Notes under the pieces: model-generated
The model's database searches: none
The model's input: only the letters and a program-made list of their open reading frames with translations
Told to the model about the DNA's origin: nothing
NCBI RefSeq assembly: GCF_000246985.2
Contig: NC_022084.1
Coordinates: 1,707,826-1,757,914, forward strand
Length of the DNA: 50,089 nucleotides
Reading direction: 5' to 3'
Origin: Thermococcus litoralis DSM 5473
Lineage (GTDB): Archaea; Methanobacteriota_B; Thermococci; Thermococcales; Thermococcaceae
Made by a program: the position numbers and the translations under genes
Shown here: in pieces, positions 40,756 to 49,995 of the stretch
Numbering within the stretch: the first letter of the stretch is position 1
Layout: the number at the start of each line of letters is the position of its first letter

Positions 40756-41536
40756 GATACTGTTAGGATAACTGGGGTATCACCTCCTGAAGCCATTCAG
40801 CAAAATCACCAGGCGGACCACCAAACCTAGAATGAATTCTGACAAAATTGTACCAGAAGGCAAACAGAAAAACAAACCTATGAACCCTCCTCCAGTCCTC
40901 ACTCCTGAAATTATTCCAAAAACGCTTTGTTCTTTCCTTCAACGTCCTAAACCAGCGCTCAACACTGTTCCTCGGCCCGAAAGTCACATGCAGATAACCC
41001 AACCCCAGACTCTTAAACGCTGACTTATACCAGCTCGCCCTGTCAACCAGAAAAACAGGCTGCCCTTCACAGGACTTCAAAACAACCAAAATGAAATCCC
41101 TGGCAACCCACCAGTTTCTAACAGTTGTAATCCAGACTGCCAAAACCTCCTTGCTCTCAACGTCAATTGCAGCCCAGAGGTATCTTTTCTTCCCGTTGAT
41201 TTTTATTACTGTTTCGTCAACTGCGATGAAGTTTCGCTGTTTTTTGACTGCGAGGATTTTTGGCTTGTAAACTGCTTCTGCGAGTTTTTGGACTGCCTCC
41301 CAGACTGTTACGTGACTGATTCTGAGGATTCTGGCGATTTGCCGGTAACTGAGGCCTTGCAGGTATAGTTCTACTCCCCTGATTTTCTTTTCTGGTGGGA
41401 TTTTGTTGCGACGAAAGGGTTTTAAGGCTGAGACTACCCAGTAAATAATGGTTTCAGACTTCATGTTCCCCCTTCTTTTTCTGAAGTACTGCCAGTAACT
41501 TAAACCTGACACCCCACAGCTTATCCTAACAGTATC
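40756..41536 (-). mobile_element. IS6-family insertion sequence (ISPfu-type), complete
   Basis: A 781-bp element with terminal inverted repeats beginning GATACTGTTAGGATAA on both ends (40756-40771 and 41521-41536). It is flanked by an exact direct repeat TTTAGCATGC (40746-40755 and 41537-41546). IS6 elements usually make 8-bp duplications; here 10 bp repeat. The integrase frame is restored exactly when one copy is removed, so the duplication is real. The transposase reads leftward. Confidence 0.92.
40763..41464 (-). CDS. IS6-family transposase
   Basis: A 233-residue DDE transposase. An N-terminal helix-turn-helix (GLSYRQIARILRISHVTVWEA) precedes the catalytic core. Likely catalytic residues are Asp in FIAVDETVIKING, Asp in VFLVDRASWY, and Glu in GPRNSVERWFRTLKERTKRFWNNF. 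The order and spacing match IS6 enzymes of Pyrococcus. GGGGGAAC before ATG 41464 selects this start over the extension to 41512. It appears intact. Confidence 0.93.
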   Translation of the reverse strand: MKSETIIYWVVSALKPFRRNKIPPEKKIRGVELYLQGLSYRQIARILRISHVTVWEAVQKLAEAVYKPKILAVKKQRNFIAVDETVIKINGKKRYLWAAIDVESKEVLAVWITTVRNWWVARDFILVVLKSCEGQPVFLVDRASWYKSAFKSLGLGYLHVTFGPRNSVERWFRTLKERTKRFWNNFRSEDWRRVHRFVFLFAFWYNFVRIHSRFGGPPGDFAEWLQEVIPQLS

Positions 41537-44692: not shown

Positions 44693-45544
44693 ATGCCAGC
44701 ATACATGATTGAGGCGAGAGTGATTATAGAAACAATTCGTCAGATGGTAAAGAGTGGCCTATTTCCAAGTTGCTATAGGGAGTTTCGTAAGTTCTTAGAG
44801 GACTTTAGTTGGGCTTTTTTCGGCGATTACCTTCTACTCAAGGCTTACAGAAGGTATGGTCTTCCTTCTCCTAGTTATGCCTTATTAGTCTCAAAAGAAT
44901 GGTACGAATGGAGGGACAATAAAAAGCTCATGCTTAACTTGGTAAATGCTAGAAAGATAGTAAATGAACTTTATAATAGACTCAAAGAAAAGTATCCAAA
45001 TCTTCCTGGAAAGGACAAATTCTGGAGTATCGTTATATCAGAGGTAACATTCCCATCATTTGTCTTTCTCTTTGGTAAAGAGATATGTGGTGAGAGTCTC
45101 CCGAGAGAAGTTCCACGCTATCTCCTCCATGCACAGATAACGCCCTATGCTACTAAGGATTTTGAGCATATTGGAGAAGTTCTCAACCTGCCTAACCCTG
45201 ATACATTTGGAAAAGATGTCATAGAGGCTATAGGTAGAATGAGAAACGGGGCTAATAAGAATTCAGCATTTATTATCCCACCGTATCCTGCCAATGATTT
45301 GGTGATGATCCTCGTTGAGAAATGGTCCGGGGTTAAAGGATTAAAAGCTAAATATGACGAGTACAGCACTTTCGTCCATTCTTATCCAGAGTCATGGCTA
45401 GTATTTCCATTTTCCTCTGTCATTGAGGTTAAAGTCTTCAAGAAGGAAATTATGGAGATTGAAAACATAATCAAAGAACTCTGGAGAGCTTATTTGAATA
45501 TCCTCAAAGCCAAATCTAAACACTCCTCCAAAAAGAAAGCGTGA
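44693..45544 (+). CDS. hypothetical protein, 283 residues
   Basis: A helical protein with conserved-looking tracts REFRKFLEDFSWAFFGDYLL and AKYDEYSTFVHSYPESWLVF. The last stretch (Y...S.fvH) vaguely recalls DUF5677-type proteins, which I cannot confirm. It follows the 411-residue gene in the same frame after a 33-base gap containing AGGAGG. Its last 55 bases are overlapped on the other strand by a short stub frame (45490-45579). Confidence 0.65.
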   Translation: MPAYMIEARVIIETIRQMVKSGLFPSCYREFRKFLEDFSWAFFGDYLLLKAYRRYGLPSPSYALLVSKEWYEWRDNKKLMLNLVNARKIVNELYNRLKEKYPNLPGKDKFWSIVISEVTFPSFVFLFGKEICGESLPREVPRYLLHAQITPYATKDFEHIGEVLNLPNPDTFGKDVIEAIGRMRNGANKNSAFIIPPYPANDLVMILVEKWSGVKGLKAKYDEYSTFVHSYPESWLVFPFSSVIEVKVFKKEIMEIENIIKELWRAYLNILKAKSKHSSKKKA

Positions 45545-45579
45545 AATTTCGCTAGTGGTTCGATAAGTTCTTGGCTCAT
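45490..45579 (-). CDS. truncated short frame (stub 1) matching stub 2
   Basis: A 29-residue frame starting MSQELIEPLAKFHAFF at ATG 45579, preceded by GGGGTGAG. Its first 14 residues match those of stub 2 at 47973-48053 (MVGQEVIEPLAKFHA), and several differences are synonymous. It begins five bases after the stop of the 421-residue gene (opposite reading order on the minus strand). The remainder overlaps the 283-residue gene in antisense. Probably the 5' relic of a repeated gene or a small peptide. Confidence 0.45.
   Translation of the reverse strand: MSQELIEPLAKFHAFFLEECLDLALRIFK
45542..45561. repeat. 20-bp direct repeat, left copy
   Basis: TGAAATTTCGCTAGTGGTTC recurs exactly at 48013-48032 in the same orientation. 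The pair brackets the 421-residue/PIN/YwgA-like module. It is the most conserved part of the two stub frames. Confidence 0.9.
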
Positions 45580-45583
45580 TGAC

Positions 45584-46849
45584 TCACCCCTCTTTCTTGG
45601 GTAGGAATGAGAGGAGGTTAACTTTTGGAAGTTCTGAGGGTTTAGTTGATTTTGTCTTGAATCCTCTTTTGATTGGAGAGAATAGGGCTTTTAATAGCTC
45701 CCCCTCCCTGTATTCTTTGAGCATCTGTTTTTGCTCGGCGTATGGTTGGATTTCTTGATTTTCTAAGAAGTACTCAGCTTGATTTATGAGTTCCACATTA
45801 ATTCTTAGTGTGTTGAGCATAATGTTATACTCCTTTATTAATAAAATCTCTTGGAGCGTTGGGTCATTTATTAGCTTAGGATGAAGATAATAGTAGGTAT
45901 CGGGATCAAAGAGTCTTGCTTTGTATTCTAAGAGTTCTCCTGGCTTTTCGGGTTTTGGAAGGTTGTCTCCAGGCACTCCTTTTCCTTTGTTGCCTCCTAC
46001 GAAGTTAGCTCCAGTTAGGGTTGTCACGGGGTCGGTTCCAGGGGTTAACGTTAGTTGGGGACTTGATTCGAATTCTCTGTTGAGATTGGTTGTGTAGACA
46101 ACGATATCTTCTAATCTCTCGTTTTCTCTAAAGACCTCAAGGAACTGGCGGATTTTTCCTATGTTTTGGGGTGAGGGCAATCCACTTTCAAAATCTATCC
46201 AGATGTTGAAGTATTCTTTTTTGAGATAGTGCTCCGCGAGTTTTGCAAGGTCCCTCATTCCGAATTTGAGGGAAACCGGGACGAATATAGGTTTGTTGTT
46301 TTTACTGTCAAGTTTTTCAACGCTCCAGTCAACGTATTTGATATAGTCATCCAAATTAGCTATTTTTATGGGTCTGTATTTTACTTTTCCAGTTTCAGGA
46401 TCTTTTTTGACAGGAATGCTCTTTTTGACTTTTATATTGGGAACTAAGAGGGCTATTGATGAGTATGCGTAATAATATGAGAGGAATCCCGAAAGATCCT
46501 TTAGACCGTCCAAAATTTGTGGCCGGAGTGGGTTGAAGCTTAGGGTATATGTTAAGATTAGCGGAGAGGCCCATCTCTTGTATTTAAAAAGACGAGTTAT
46601 GTTTCCATTTTCAGTTTCATCGAGTATGGCGTTAACTGTACTTTCTTGGAGTGTTGAAGAGACCTCATAAAAGAGCGTGTATTTCTCAAGACCTCTTTTT
46701 TGTTCTTCATAAGTTTTGAGGGTTATGTTGTTCACATTTAGGACTTTGATAGGTCTCTCTATCTTAATGCCTCCTAATGTAAATCGTTTAATGTTAAATT
46801 CAGAGTTTTTGTCAAGGATTGATTCTTTAATGTTAAGAGCAGTTGTCAT
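45584..46849 (-). CDS. 421-residue protein, possible TIM-barrel/TGT-like fold, third gene of YwgA-PIN trio
   Basis: The central part (PIFVPVSLKFGMRDLAKLAEHY, then YFNIWIDFESGLPSPQNIGK and IVVYTTNL) has the alternating strand-helix text of a TIM barrel. It reminds me of archaeal tRNA-guanine transglycosylase relatives, but no zinc site or catalytic motif is clear, so this is weak. A glycine-rich loop (NFVGGNKGKGVPGDN) and a helical C-terminus follow. ATG 46849 with GAGGTG upstream overlaps the PIN gene by 17 bases, so it is translationally coupled to it. Confidence 0.55.
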   Translation of the reverse strand: MTTALNIKESILDKNSEFNIKRFTLGGIKIERPIKVLNVNNITLKTYEEQKRGLEKYTLFYEVSSTLQESTVNAILDETENGNITRLFKYKRWASPLILTYTLSFNPLRPQILDGLKDLSGFLSYYYAYSSIALLVPNIKVKKSIPVKKDPETGKVKYRPIKIANLDDYIKYVDWSVEKLDSKNNKPIFVPVSLKFGMRDLAKLAEHYLKKEYFNIWIDFESGLPSPQNIGKIRQFLEVFRENERLEDIVVYTTNLNREFESSPQLTLTPGTDPVTTLTGANFVGGNKGKGVPGDNLPKPEKPGELLEYKARLFDPDTYYYLHPKLINDPTLQEILLIKEYNIMLNTLRINVELINQAEYFLENQEIQPYAEQKQMLKEYREGELLKALFSPIKRGFKTKSTKPSELPKVNLLSFLPKKEG

Positions 46850-47396
46850 ATGTTACACCTCTAATTTCTTTGAGTGCATTGTCTATAATGTTGGAAGTAA
46901 CTCTAAATTTAGATTTCCTAATTTTCTCTAAAATACTTATTGCTTCTTCCCGAGTGTATATTGCGTATGGATAATAGCATAATTTTATAAATCCAATTGT
47001 CCCGGTCATTTTTGATTTTAGACCGGATAATTTTTTCTCTATAATCTCCCGGGGACCATCTTCATCAAGGATTAAAATGAATTCTCTCCCCATGAGATAG
47101 TATACAATAGCAATGCCAATAACTTCATGTTCTCCCTTTTTAATTTCCTCAATTCCTAGAAATGGACGCACTATTTCTCCATAATTAAAGGGTAAGGGAT
47201 TTTCTTGAACCTTTGATAGATCGGGTTTAATGAAATGATAGTTAGGGGATTTTTCTATTTCACTCATCACTATAGGTCCGATGACAAATTTAAATTTCCC
47301 ACTGCAGATTATCTTTTTGAGGCCTTCTGGATAACTTATATCATCTAAGAAACAGATGTAGAATGTTGAATCGCTTATAACCTTTGTATCTATCAT
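46833..47396 (-). CDS. PIN-domain ribonuclease-like protein
   Basis: A 187-residue protein with a PIN-type acidic constellation: Asp9 in ISDSTFYICFLDD, Glu46 in VMSEIEKS, Glu89/Glu91 in KKGEHEVIGIAIVYY, and Asp111/Asp113 in ILILDEDGPREI. PIN enzymes are metal-dependent RNases, often VapC-type toxins. ATG 47396 overlaps the stop of the YwgA-like gene (ATGA), so expression is coupled. The usual small VapB-type antitoxin is absent; the upstream gene may take that role. Confidence 0.75.
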   Translation of the reverse strand: MIDTKVISDSTFYICFLDDISYPEGLKKIICSGKFKFVIGPIVMSEIEKSPNYHFIKPDLSKVQENPLPFNYGEIVRPFLGIEEIKKGEHEVIGIAIVYYLMGREFILILDEDGPREIIEKKLSGLKSKMTGTIGFIKLCYYPYAIYTREEAISILEKIRKSKFRVTSNIIDNALKEIRGVTYDNCS

Positions 47397-47986
47397 GGTT
47401 TTGCCTCCAAAATCTCTTGGTATTTGCTCTTGCTAATTATTCCCTTTCTGTATAATTCATATGCAAGCCGTTTTCTGCGGGAGGGCGCCATTAGAGACGT
47501 ATAAACTGAAGAGTATTTAGTCCAGTCCTTGAAGGTTGAGTAGATTAATAAGAGAAGCTCTTCAACACTCAATGAATCGTACATTAATCTAATGGCTTTT
47601 GCTATGGCTAAAAACTCCTTGAAAGATTCCTCATGTGAATACTCTTCAGTGAGCTTTCTGAAAACAGCTCTGCCTTCAGAAGTTAAAGATATCTTAGTAA
47701 TCATTCGTTTCACTAATGGAAGATCTTCAACATAGAACTCAAATGCTTCAGGATAGTATACCGGGTTCTTCAAGGCTTCATTTAGGTCTGGAGAATATGG
47801 GCCATACATATGCTTCTCGAACTTAATGATTTTTGATAAATCGGGAGCAACATTACGAAGGATGAAGAATTCTTTATGCAAATGTAGATTAGTGGGGATA
47901 GGGGTATCTACTACTCCAATGAGGAGGATCAGGTATTGTTCTACTAACAATTCCCGCTGTTCAGGAGTTAGTTCATCCCATACCAT
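47393..47986 (-). CDS. YwgA/SocA-like protein, first gene of the PIN trio
   Basis: A 197-residue protein. The segment HLHKEFFILRNVAPDLSKII followed by FEKHMYGPYSPDLNEAL matches the YwgA/SocA (Panacea-type) layout with a GPYS motif. Panacea-domain proteins serve as antitoxins of many toxins, so it is a candidate partner for the PIN protein. GGAGG with an eight-base spacer precedes ATG 47986. The family assignment is by eye. Confidence 0.6.
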   Translation of the reverse strand: MVWDELTPEQRELLVEQYLILLIGVVDTPIPTNLHLHKEFFILRNVAPDLSKIIKFEKHMYGPYSPDLNEALKNPVYYPEAFEFYVEDLPLVKRMITKISLTSEGRAVFRKLTEEYSHEESFKEFLAIAKAIRLMYDSLSVEELLLLIYSTFKDWTKYSSVYTSLMAPSRRKRLAYELYRKGIISKSKYQEILEAKP

Positions 47987-48053
47987 TAATTGAACCTCCG
48001 TCTATCTGTGCATGAAATTTCGCTAGTGGTTCAATGACTTCCTGCCCAACCAT
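47973..48053 (-). CDS. truncated short frame (stub 2) upstream of the YwgA-like gene
   Basis: A 26-residue frame starting MVGQEVIEPLAKFHAQID at ATG 48053, ending inside the first codons of the YwgA-like gene (14-base overlap). It matches stub 1 over M..QE(V/L)IEPLAKFHA; the codons for His-Ala differ only synonymously (CATGCA against CACGCT). It may be a relic or a leader peptide coupled to the YwgA-like gene. Confidence 0.45.
   Translation of the reverse strand: MVGQEVIEPLAKFHAQIDGGSINGMG
48013..48032. repeat. 20-bp direct repeat, right copy
   Basis: The second exact copy of TGAAATTTCGCTAGTGGTTC (see 45542-45561). The two starts are 2,471 bases apart. Confidence 0.9.
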
Positions 48054-48138
48054 CAGAGCCTGCCTCCTCCCGTGGAACTGATTTCACTATTGTGATACGA
48101 TATCATAACTTTGTGTTAATTATTTATAGGGTTTGCCT

Positions 48139-48792
48139 TTAAGGGAACTTAGTTAAGAACCAAGGTCTCTTTGAGAGCTTCTCAACAATGTCCCTTATCT
48201 CTTGTACATAATAAAAATCTGTAATATGTTTGATTTTTTCAAAAATATCTTTTATTACTTCAATAATATCTTCTTTTGCCTTTTCTACATCTTCCGTGAG
48301 ATAGTCAATGACCGCTTGAGAGGGCTTGTTGAAGTTTATTTGAAGTGAACCTATTGAAGTGTCTACTTCTCCTTCTGTGATATTTATATAATAATCCGCG
48401 AGTTCTCTAAGGGTTTTATATGATTTGAGTGTTTTAGCTACTTGTTGCGCTTCGTATTTAAGGTTTTTGAGATTATATTTTTTAAATAACCTTTCCAAGT
48501 CCTCAAAGAATCTAATTATTTTTGAGTGGTGACTGAAAATCTCATCTATTCCCTCTGGTGTTATGCCTATCTTGTCGAGTTCTTGAAGGATGTCGAAATC
48601 ACTCTTTATTAGGTTTATTAGGATAGGTTTCACTTCATGGTAGAGATAGTAGTAACTTCTGTTTGCCATAGTCCTGTACACTATCTCAGGATAATCTTGT
48701 CTAGTTTGAAATGATTTAGAAAAGCCTGAATTAGGATTCTGGCAGAGATTACGAAGTTCTTTAGAAAACTCAAGAAAAGCTTTGGGCTCCAT
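48139..48792 (-). CDS. HEPN-like protein with R-x6-H motif
   Basis: A 217-residue, all-helical protein. IVYRTMANRSYYYLYHEVKP holds Arg45-x6-His52 in the setting 'nRsYYylyHe', the signature of HEPN ribonucleases and toxins. The remainder is charged helices. In HEPN systems the neighbour gene is usually an antitoxin; here the 153-residue gene lies 12 bases upstream in the same operon. RNase activity is an inference from the motif. Confidence 0.65.
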   Translation of the reverse strand: MEPKAFLEFSKELRNLCQNPNSGFSKSFQTRQDYPEIVYRTMANRSYYYLYHEVKPILINLIKSDFDILQELDKIGITPEGIDEIFSHHSKIIRFFEDLERLFKKYNLKNLKYEAQQVAKTLKSYKTLRELADYYINITEGEVDTSIGSLQINFNKPSQAVIDYLTEDVEKAKEDIIEVIKDIFEKIKHITDFYYVQEIRDIVEKLSKRPWFLTKFP

Positions 48793-49313: not shown

Positions 49314-49640
49314 TTATTTCTTCGTTTCTTCTTCTAGAATAATAGGGCCAAATTTTTCCTCATACTTAGCAATATTCTCCTTTAATGCGTTGAGAAGTCT
49401 CTTAGCCACTTTGGGAGTCATGTATATCCTGACGTCAGATATTAACATTCCTTTGTGACCTAAAATCTTTCCACTATTCTTTTCAGCATAAGCAGATAAT
49501 TCTGGTCTGAGAAACTCTATAATGAACAACTCATCGGGTGTATGATTAATCACCACACTTGTAACAAAACGTTCTACAAAGTTGGGAGCTTTAGGAATCT
49601 CCACTTCATTACTCTTCTTTTCAACATTTGGATCTTCCAT
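49314..49640 (-). CDS. DUF3467-like small protein
   Basis: A 108-residue protein whose core (TSVVINHTPDELFIIEFLRP ... RIYMTPKVAKRLLNALKENI followed by AKYEEKFG) fits DUF3467, a small alpha/beta family of unknown function found in bacteria and archaea. GGTGAT selects ATG 49640 over GTG 49652. It is the first gene of the leftward set, 47 bases upstream of the 153-residue gene. Confidence 0.7.
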   Translation of the reverse strand: MEDPNVEKKSNEVEIPKAPNFVERFVTSVVINHTPDELFIIEFLRPELSAYAEKNSGKILGHKGMLISDVRIYMTPKVAKRLLNALKENIAKYEEKFGPIILEEETKK

Positions 49641-49995
49641 TGTTATCACCAAAGCAATTCTGTTAACCTATTATACCCAAACTGAGTTATTGTATTAGGC
49701 AATTAGTTAATCATAAAACGTATACGTGTTATTTTATGTGGGTGGCAACTTATAAGGTTTTTGATAACCATTAGTTACTATAAAAACTTCACTCAACAAT
49801 TACCATTTCGGTTAAAAATGGCTTGAATTTTGTAATACAAAATTATGTTCATGCGAAAGGGGCTTGCTCTTGCTGCAAAGTATAGTTTACTCTTTTCTCC
49901 TTCCTTCTTTCAGAGTTAATTATTTTTGTATTTATATAATCCAATGAAAAAGGACTTGCCAGATATATGTATAAAACAGTTTTGTTGCTCTGAAC
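49641..49995 (-). promoter_or_regulatory. upstream region of the DUF3467/HEPN operon
   Basis: No gene is seen. On the minus strand GGGTATAATAGG (about 49667-49678) is a TATA candidate. ACGTATACGT at 49718-49727 is a perfect 10-bp palindrome about 80 bases upstream of ATG 49640, a possible operator. The right part up to 49995 is AT-rich and empty. Confidence 0.45.

Follow-up and report, generated by a model that had tools for sequence, protein, structure and literature searches.

Three genes, A, B and C, lie one after another on the reverse strand of the Thermococcus litoralis DSM 5473 chromosome (2.2 Mb). The whole stretch of DNA that was analysed, 50,089 nucleotides at positions 1,707,826-1,757,914, is called the window below. 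The genes are transcribed in the order A, B, C, and a preliminary description had them overlapping by 4 and 17 bases; the open reading frames sit exactly where it placed them, with 4 bases shared by A and B and 17 bases by B and C. Against homologues of approximately 75-87% identity, dN/dS was 0.04-0.12, and synonymous sites were near saturation for A and B. All three are therefore real genes under purifying selection. The features of the locus and of the related loci are collected in Table 1.

Table 1. Features of the A-B-C locus in the window, incomplete trios in other genomes, and sister modules.
Feature	Position	Strand	Description
Gene A	47393..47986	(-)	197 aa; DarG-C/SocA-Panacea-like domain (~20-150) and UPF0175-like C-terminus (~150-195); predicted antitoxin/adaptor
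Gene B	46833..47396	(-)	187 aa; PIN nuclease of DUF3368 type, within the PDC-S70 set; candidate RNase toxin
Gene C	45584..46849	(-)	421 aa; probable degenerate TGT-superfamily protein
PCNA-interaction-like tail of C (NLLSFL, in PKVNLLSFLPKKEG)	45602..45619	(-)	assigned from the tail pattern of the C family
Putative control region	48093..48128	(-)	inverted repeat TGATA-CGA-TATCA (48093-48105) and TATA-like TATAAATAA (48120-48128); direct sequence reading
26-codon leader ORF (MVGQEVIEPLAKFHAQIDGG...)	47973..48053	(-)	overlaps the start of A; resembles what is left of the 5' end of an AbrB-type gene; sequence reading
Second AbrB-type 5' remnant (MSQELIEPLAKFHA...)	45490..45579	(-)	directly 3' of C; has a perfect 20-bp repeat in common with the leader
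20-bp perfect repeat TGAAATTTCGCTAGTGGTTC	45542-45561 and 48013-48032		either side of the trio
DDE insertion sequence, complete	40763-41512
DDE insertion sequence, truncated	49993 onward		99% over 95 bases
217-aa protein	48139-48792		next to the trio
DUF3467 protein	49314-49652		inside the segment bracketed by insertion sequences
G013			A-C, no B
G348			A-C, no B seen
G235			A and a fragment of C
G241			A frameshifted, B absent, C intact
G364			A intact, B and C truncated
Sister modules, Lokiarchaeota phylum	L212:4218-6509; L217:3588-5974; L218:690-3021		A-type protein without UPF0175 tail, zinc-retaining TGT-like protein, GNAT acetyltransferase-like protein
Further sister modules	L209, L210, L219, L220, L226, L228		A-type protein, different PIN, PD-(D/E)XK-like protein, second TGT-like protein

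Gene B of the window matched the PADLOC model PDC-S70 at E 4.8e-6, as did 13 of the 17 members of its family (best 6.4e-22). DUF3368 was matched by 7/17 members (best 1.1e-6), and the PIN model at 5e-4. The acidic residues of a PIN RNase had already been read in the middle gene, and the alignment of 17 homologues supports that reading: D9, E46 and G88-E89 are invariant and D111 is nearly so. Judged by these residues and matches, B is a PIN-class RNase protein. AlphaFold prediction from five sequences gave no usable model (pLDDT 43.4). The B proteins of the trio clade scored 1e-44 or better and the next PIN proteins 1e-15, a gap which makes the B clade discrete. Other DUF3368-type PIN genes occur in the genome of the window, away from the trio; one of them (E 1.6e-13; G000:C1:996487-996900) has no C adjoining. 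PDC-S70 was described as a single-gene, unvalidated PIN defence candidate, 56% archaeal and enriched in Asgard archaea (Martinez-Alvarez and Peng, PMC12988326). By E-value B falls inside this set, but the intact B of this clade was only ever found beside A, and with C in 21 genomes.

The first gene had been said to resemble the Panacea/SocA antitoxins. The likeness extends to DarG: window A matched the PADLOC DarG model at E 2e-6, covering only profile positions 176-312 of 329, and the A family matched the DarG structure 7yk3 in the PDB at E 1.9e-5, so that the N-terminal part of A resembles the C-terminal domain of DarG. Within the A family, 19/22 members matched DarG and 20/22 matched PDC-M19A in PADLOC. 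The Panacea part of the claim stands less firmly, since Pfam SocA_Panacea was matched by only 2/22 members at about 1e-3, and window A was unmatched. A does share with PanAT/SocAB (Panacea, DUF4065; PMC8832971) a related N-terminal domain with a GPYS motif and the swapping of partners. Membership of PanAT was rejected on those two SocA_Panacea matches and because the locus has no two-gene PanAT layout. Membership of DarTG was likewise rejected, because A has no macrodomain and the operon has no DarT, B being a PIN protein and C TGT-like.

At its C-terminal end A is UPF0175-like: 9/22 A proteins matched UPF0175, with a best E of 2.8e-11, although window A itself reached only 0.19. Antitoxins of the UPF0175 class are established partners of PIN toxins (COG2886; PMC2701414; PMC6929052), and the statement of the preliminary description that the PIN protein lacks a VapB-type partner is therefore probably wrong. 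As in the COG2886/UPF0175-PIN pairs (PMC2701414), a DUF3368-type PIN adjoins a protein with a UPF0175-like segment; the difference is that the antitoxin segment of A is fused behind a DarG-C/Panacea-like domain and that a third gene, TGT-like, is a constant companion. At every locus with a DUF3368-type B, A has this C-terminal part in full length, and it is missing in L046, L211, L212, L217, L218 and most other relatives with a different partner. Because this part tracks the DUF3368-type PIN, the pattern suggests that A is a bridge, with its tail to the PIN protein and its N-domain to C.

Gene C of the window, searched alone, had no significant match in Pfam, PADLOC, NCBIfam or PDB, and its weak Pfam and PADLOC matches (LepB_GAP_N, Gp_dh_C, AbiEii, homing endonuclease, Cas5) were put down to chance. 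The C profile found nothing in a narrow TGT set and weak local hits in a broader one; a comparison set of short second TGT copies was collected with Pfam TGT. When the C family was compared directly with TGT, the weak hits were collinear along the protein, with a chain score of 44-46, whereas 60 decoys made by reversal or block shuffling reached at most 22. The proteins adjoining the shorter A in L211, L212, L217 and L218 retain the TGT zinc motif CxCxxC...H. The profile of these four zinc-type proteins matched TGT (P 3.5e-11, 312 columns, score 90, decoy maximum 31) and also the C family (P 1.5e-6, 328 columns, score 55, decoy maximum 22). Since one profile matches both over the full length, C very probably belongs to the TGT superfamily by transitive, full-length evidence. 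The third protein had been called TIM-barrel-like, and these profile comparisons through the zinc-type intermediates give that barrel a family. The AlphaFold model of C from five sequences was not usable (pLDDT 45.6); its Foldseek matches to TIM barrels were weak, none below 1e-3, and were not used as evidence.

C is homologous to the TGT/DpdA superfamily over the barrel by the profile chain, and the C-terminal helical segment is kept, but the catalytic apparatus has been lost. In the alignment, the column of the TGT nucleophile Asp is an invariant Gly (G285), and neither the Asp-Ser-Gly-Gly motif nor the zinc ligands are present. C is probably not an active transglycosylase. N184, K186, D219, N255 and D273 are newly conserved, and E62 and E353 are also conserved, so C may possess a new active site (D219, D273, E62, E353) instead of a sensor role. 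One alternative builds on this: C would be catalytically active, with DNA or tRNA as its substrate and an altered chemistry (DpdA-like base exchange, or nuclease activity), and A-B would be a guard triggered when the modification is lost. The TGT ancestry and the new acidic and amide residues (N184, K186, D219, D273) speak for it, a PCNA-like tail would fit a DNA enzyme, and there are TGT homologues that modify DNA (Dpd systems) or occur together with GNAT (BRC systems; PMC12839542). With the nucleophile replaced by Gly and both the motif and the zinc ligands gone, we consider this alternative quite improbable.

The genome set was built from searches with C, A and B and from reading of the neighbourhoods. 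Homologues of C were found in 26 of the examined genomes, and A and B were intact and adjacent in 21 of the 26; the other five are listed in Table 1. The 21 genomes with intact A-B-C span several archaeal phyla, the Lokiarchaeota group included. All three genes are co-directional in 16 of these trios, C is divergent from A-B in four, and in one it is convergent. In the phylum of the window, C occurs in 10/115 genomes, with A adjoining C in 10/10 and B present in 9/10. According to the preliminary description, finding that the three genes are never together in genomes would have refuted its reading; instead, even distant archaea preserve their order and coupling.

The distance matrices of A, B and C are correlated (Mantel r 0.88-0.93; 0/2000 permutations). 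For all three genes, the window trio is nearer to L005 and L006 (Lokiarchaeota) and L073 than to L037-L040 of its own family, with values of 0.34-0.38 versus 0.27 for A, 0.36-0.49 versus 0.25 for B, and 0.37-0.41 versus 0.24 for C. Given this shared placement and the matrix correlation, the simplest reading is that A, B and C were transferred as one unit. Intact B was always accompanied by intact A, and both loci with a broken A (L045, L079) were without B. This pattern of loss is a toxin-antitoxin-like asymmetry. A natural decay product was seen in G007 (L045:9409-9816), where a frame-disrupted A lies beside a DUF499/methylase/helicase cluster, and B and C are gone.

These data bear on a simpler view of the locus, an ordinary UPF0175-PIN (VapBC-like) toxin-antitoxin pair in which C is an accessory, unneeded for toxicity or neutralisation, and whose role is the maintenance of a mobile island. 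The UPF0175-DUF3368 combination is known, with a plain example in the relative L214 (UPF0175 4.9e-23); copies of an insertion sequence flank the locus, and relatives ride on pT26-2-like elements. Third genes of PanAT operons, moreover, usually occur in a small fraction of genomes (PMC8832971). However, C is intact in 21/21 intact A-B loci of the clade and co-diverges with A and B. The C-type protein also stays with the A-type protein even where there is no DUF3368-type PIN (L046, L211, L212, L217, L218), and the B clade is set sharply apart from other DUF3368 PINs by the score gap given above. We therefore hold a pair with a dispensable C to be unlikely.

Related A-type genes are found with other effectors (Table 1), where the labels GNAT and PD-(D/E)XK come from reading of the sequence. 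In one group, the TGT-like protein is of the zinc type and its neighbour is GNAT-like. In the other, the CxCxxC of the second TGT-like protein is kept in L219, L220, L226 and L228 and lost in the Thermococcales L209 and L210; the profile of these proteins matched TGT at P 1.8e-5. The sister modules thus likewise couple a TGT-like protein to an A-type protein and a toxin-like effector. Because related A-type genes pair TGT-like proteins with GNAT or with another PIN, the toxin of these modules appears to be swappable. The TGT-GNAT linkage in L212, L217 and L218 resembles that of BRC systems (TGT and GNAT; PMC12839542).

The exchange of effectors can also be read in another way, with C as a tRNA-binding guide: the pseudo-TGT would present a particular tRNA to the effector, a PIN protein here or, in the sister system, a GNAT. 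Toxins of the GNAT type act on tRNA, and GNAT-like genes adjoin the A-type/TGT-like pairs of L212, L217 and L218 by sequence reading. PIN toxins of toxin-antitoxin systems cleave tRNA or rRNA (PMC10440598), and this reading starts from tRNA being a known target of both classes. However, the PCNA-like tails, including the end LDSYF of the GNAT-linked L217 protein, indicate DNA, and we think a tRNA guide unlikely as well.

After a basic linker, C proteins often end in NLLSFL (window), NLFDFM, SLFDFM, SIFGFL, IIEWF, IIDYF or similar, and the zinc-type TGT-like protein of L217 has the PIP-like end already mentioned. The pattern [LIMV]xx[FYW][FLMIYWV], scored within the last 16 residues, was present in 13/25 C proteins, whereas shuffled tails gave a mean of 1.8 and a maximum of 8. 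It occurs in 10/19 independent lineages (binomial P 8e-5 versus other proteins of the trio loci). The usual place of PIP motifs is the very end of a protein, N- or C-terminal (PMC3504372). The tail is absent from about half of the C lineages, and the conserved Gln of PIP motifs is usually missing in the C tails. We give even odds to the docking of C to PCNA.

The surroundings of the trio were also considered. Next to four trios, at a distance of up to about 1 kb, there are divergent DUF1156 methylase/DUF499/SNF2 helicase loci, and DUF499-centred loci are BREX-related or Hma systems (PMC12839542); the trio itself, in contrast, has no BREX core gene. The trio of L005 adjoins a PLD-helicase, an Eco57I-type methylase and a PIWI protein. 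L004 and L046 have a common cluster, whose ATPase matches pT26-2-type plasmids. In the window, the trio and about ten other genes lie between two DDE insertion sequences, one complete and the other a truncated, near-identical copy. Several trio loci lie in ordinary surroundings. Searches for C in phage and plasmid collections found none, and a scan of IMG/VR gave no hit. Overall, the context favours a mobile or defence role.

Taking the evidence together, we believe, with a probability of roughly 0.6, that the trio is a toxin-antitoxin or abortive-defence module of three components, the defence part being inferred from context. In this module, A would repress the operon, which has an inverted repeat beside a TATA-like box upstream, its UPF0175-like tail would keep B inactive, and its DarG-C-like domain would touch C. 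C would be a nucleic-acid-binding sensor or tether, descended from a base-exchange enzyme, and in many lineages it would be held at the PCNA clamp by its C-terminal tail. The trigger may be the meeting of C with a wrong nucleic acid, such as foreign DNA in replication or an altered guanine-containing DNA or tRNA; alternatively, it may be the decay of labile components. B, once released, would cut cellular or invader RNA and lead to arrest or death. More tentatively, and at somewhat less than even odds, the trio and its sisters may form a new class of archaeal immune or toxin-antitoxin module, in which catalytically dead, clamp-tethered nucleic-acid sensors of the TGT superfamily share a DarG-C/Panacea-like adaptor and use interchangeable effectors (DUF3368 PIN; GNAT; another PIN with a PD-(D/E)XK-like protein).

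PDC-S70 is among the commonest archaeal defence candidates and has been treated as a lone PIN; at least one of its clades is a three-gene unit, whose partners are now named. A pseudo-TGT as a constant part of a toxin module, with hints of PCNA docking and with swappable toxins, would, if true, represent a new type of trigger. Archaeal abortive defence would then also become testable in Thermococcus, a genus with genetics.

Some smaller observations concern the neighbouring genes. The 217-aa protein next to the trio has a weak match to DUF6079 (BrxC-like) at E 0.0012, below the Pfam cut-off, and the DUF3467 protein of the window was matched in Pfam at 1.7e-13. In L005, an archaeal MAG, the PIWI/pAgo-like protein (L005:9879-12170; Pfam Piwi 1.2e-12) is encoded two genes after the trio. 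The perfect 20-bp repeat on either side of the window trio has an expected chance number of 0, and each copy codes for EPLAKFHA, the start of AbrB-type genes. AbrB-like starts akin to the leader ORF, such as MKETKEPLAKFQAKVNKDGRVSIP, are also present in L004 and L209. The repeat was considered as an integration site, and this was dropped in favour of two AbrB-type gene starts. The pattern looks as if cassettes had been swapped between the starts of AbrB genes.
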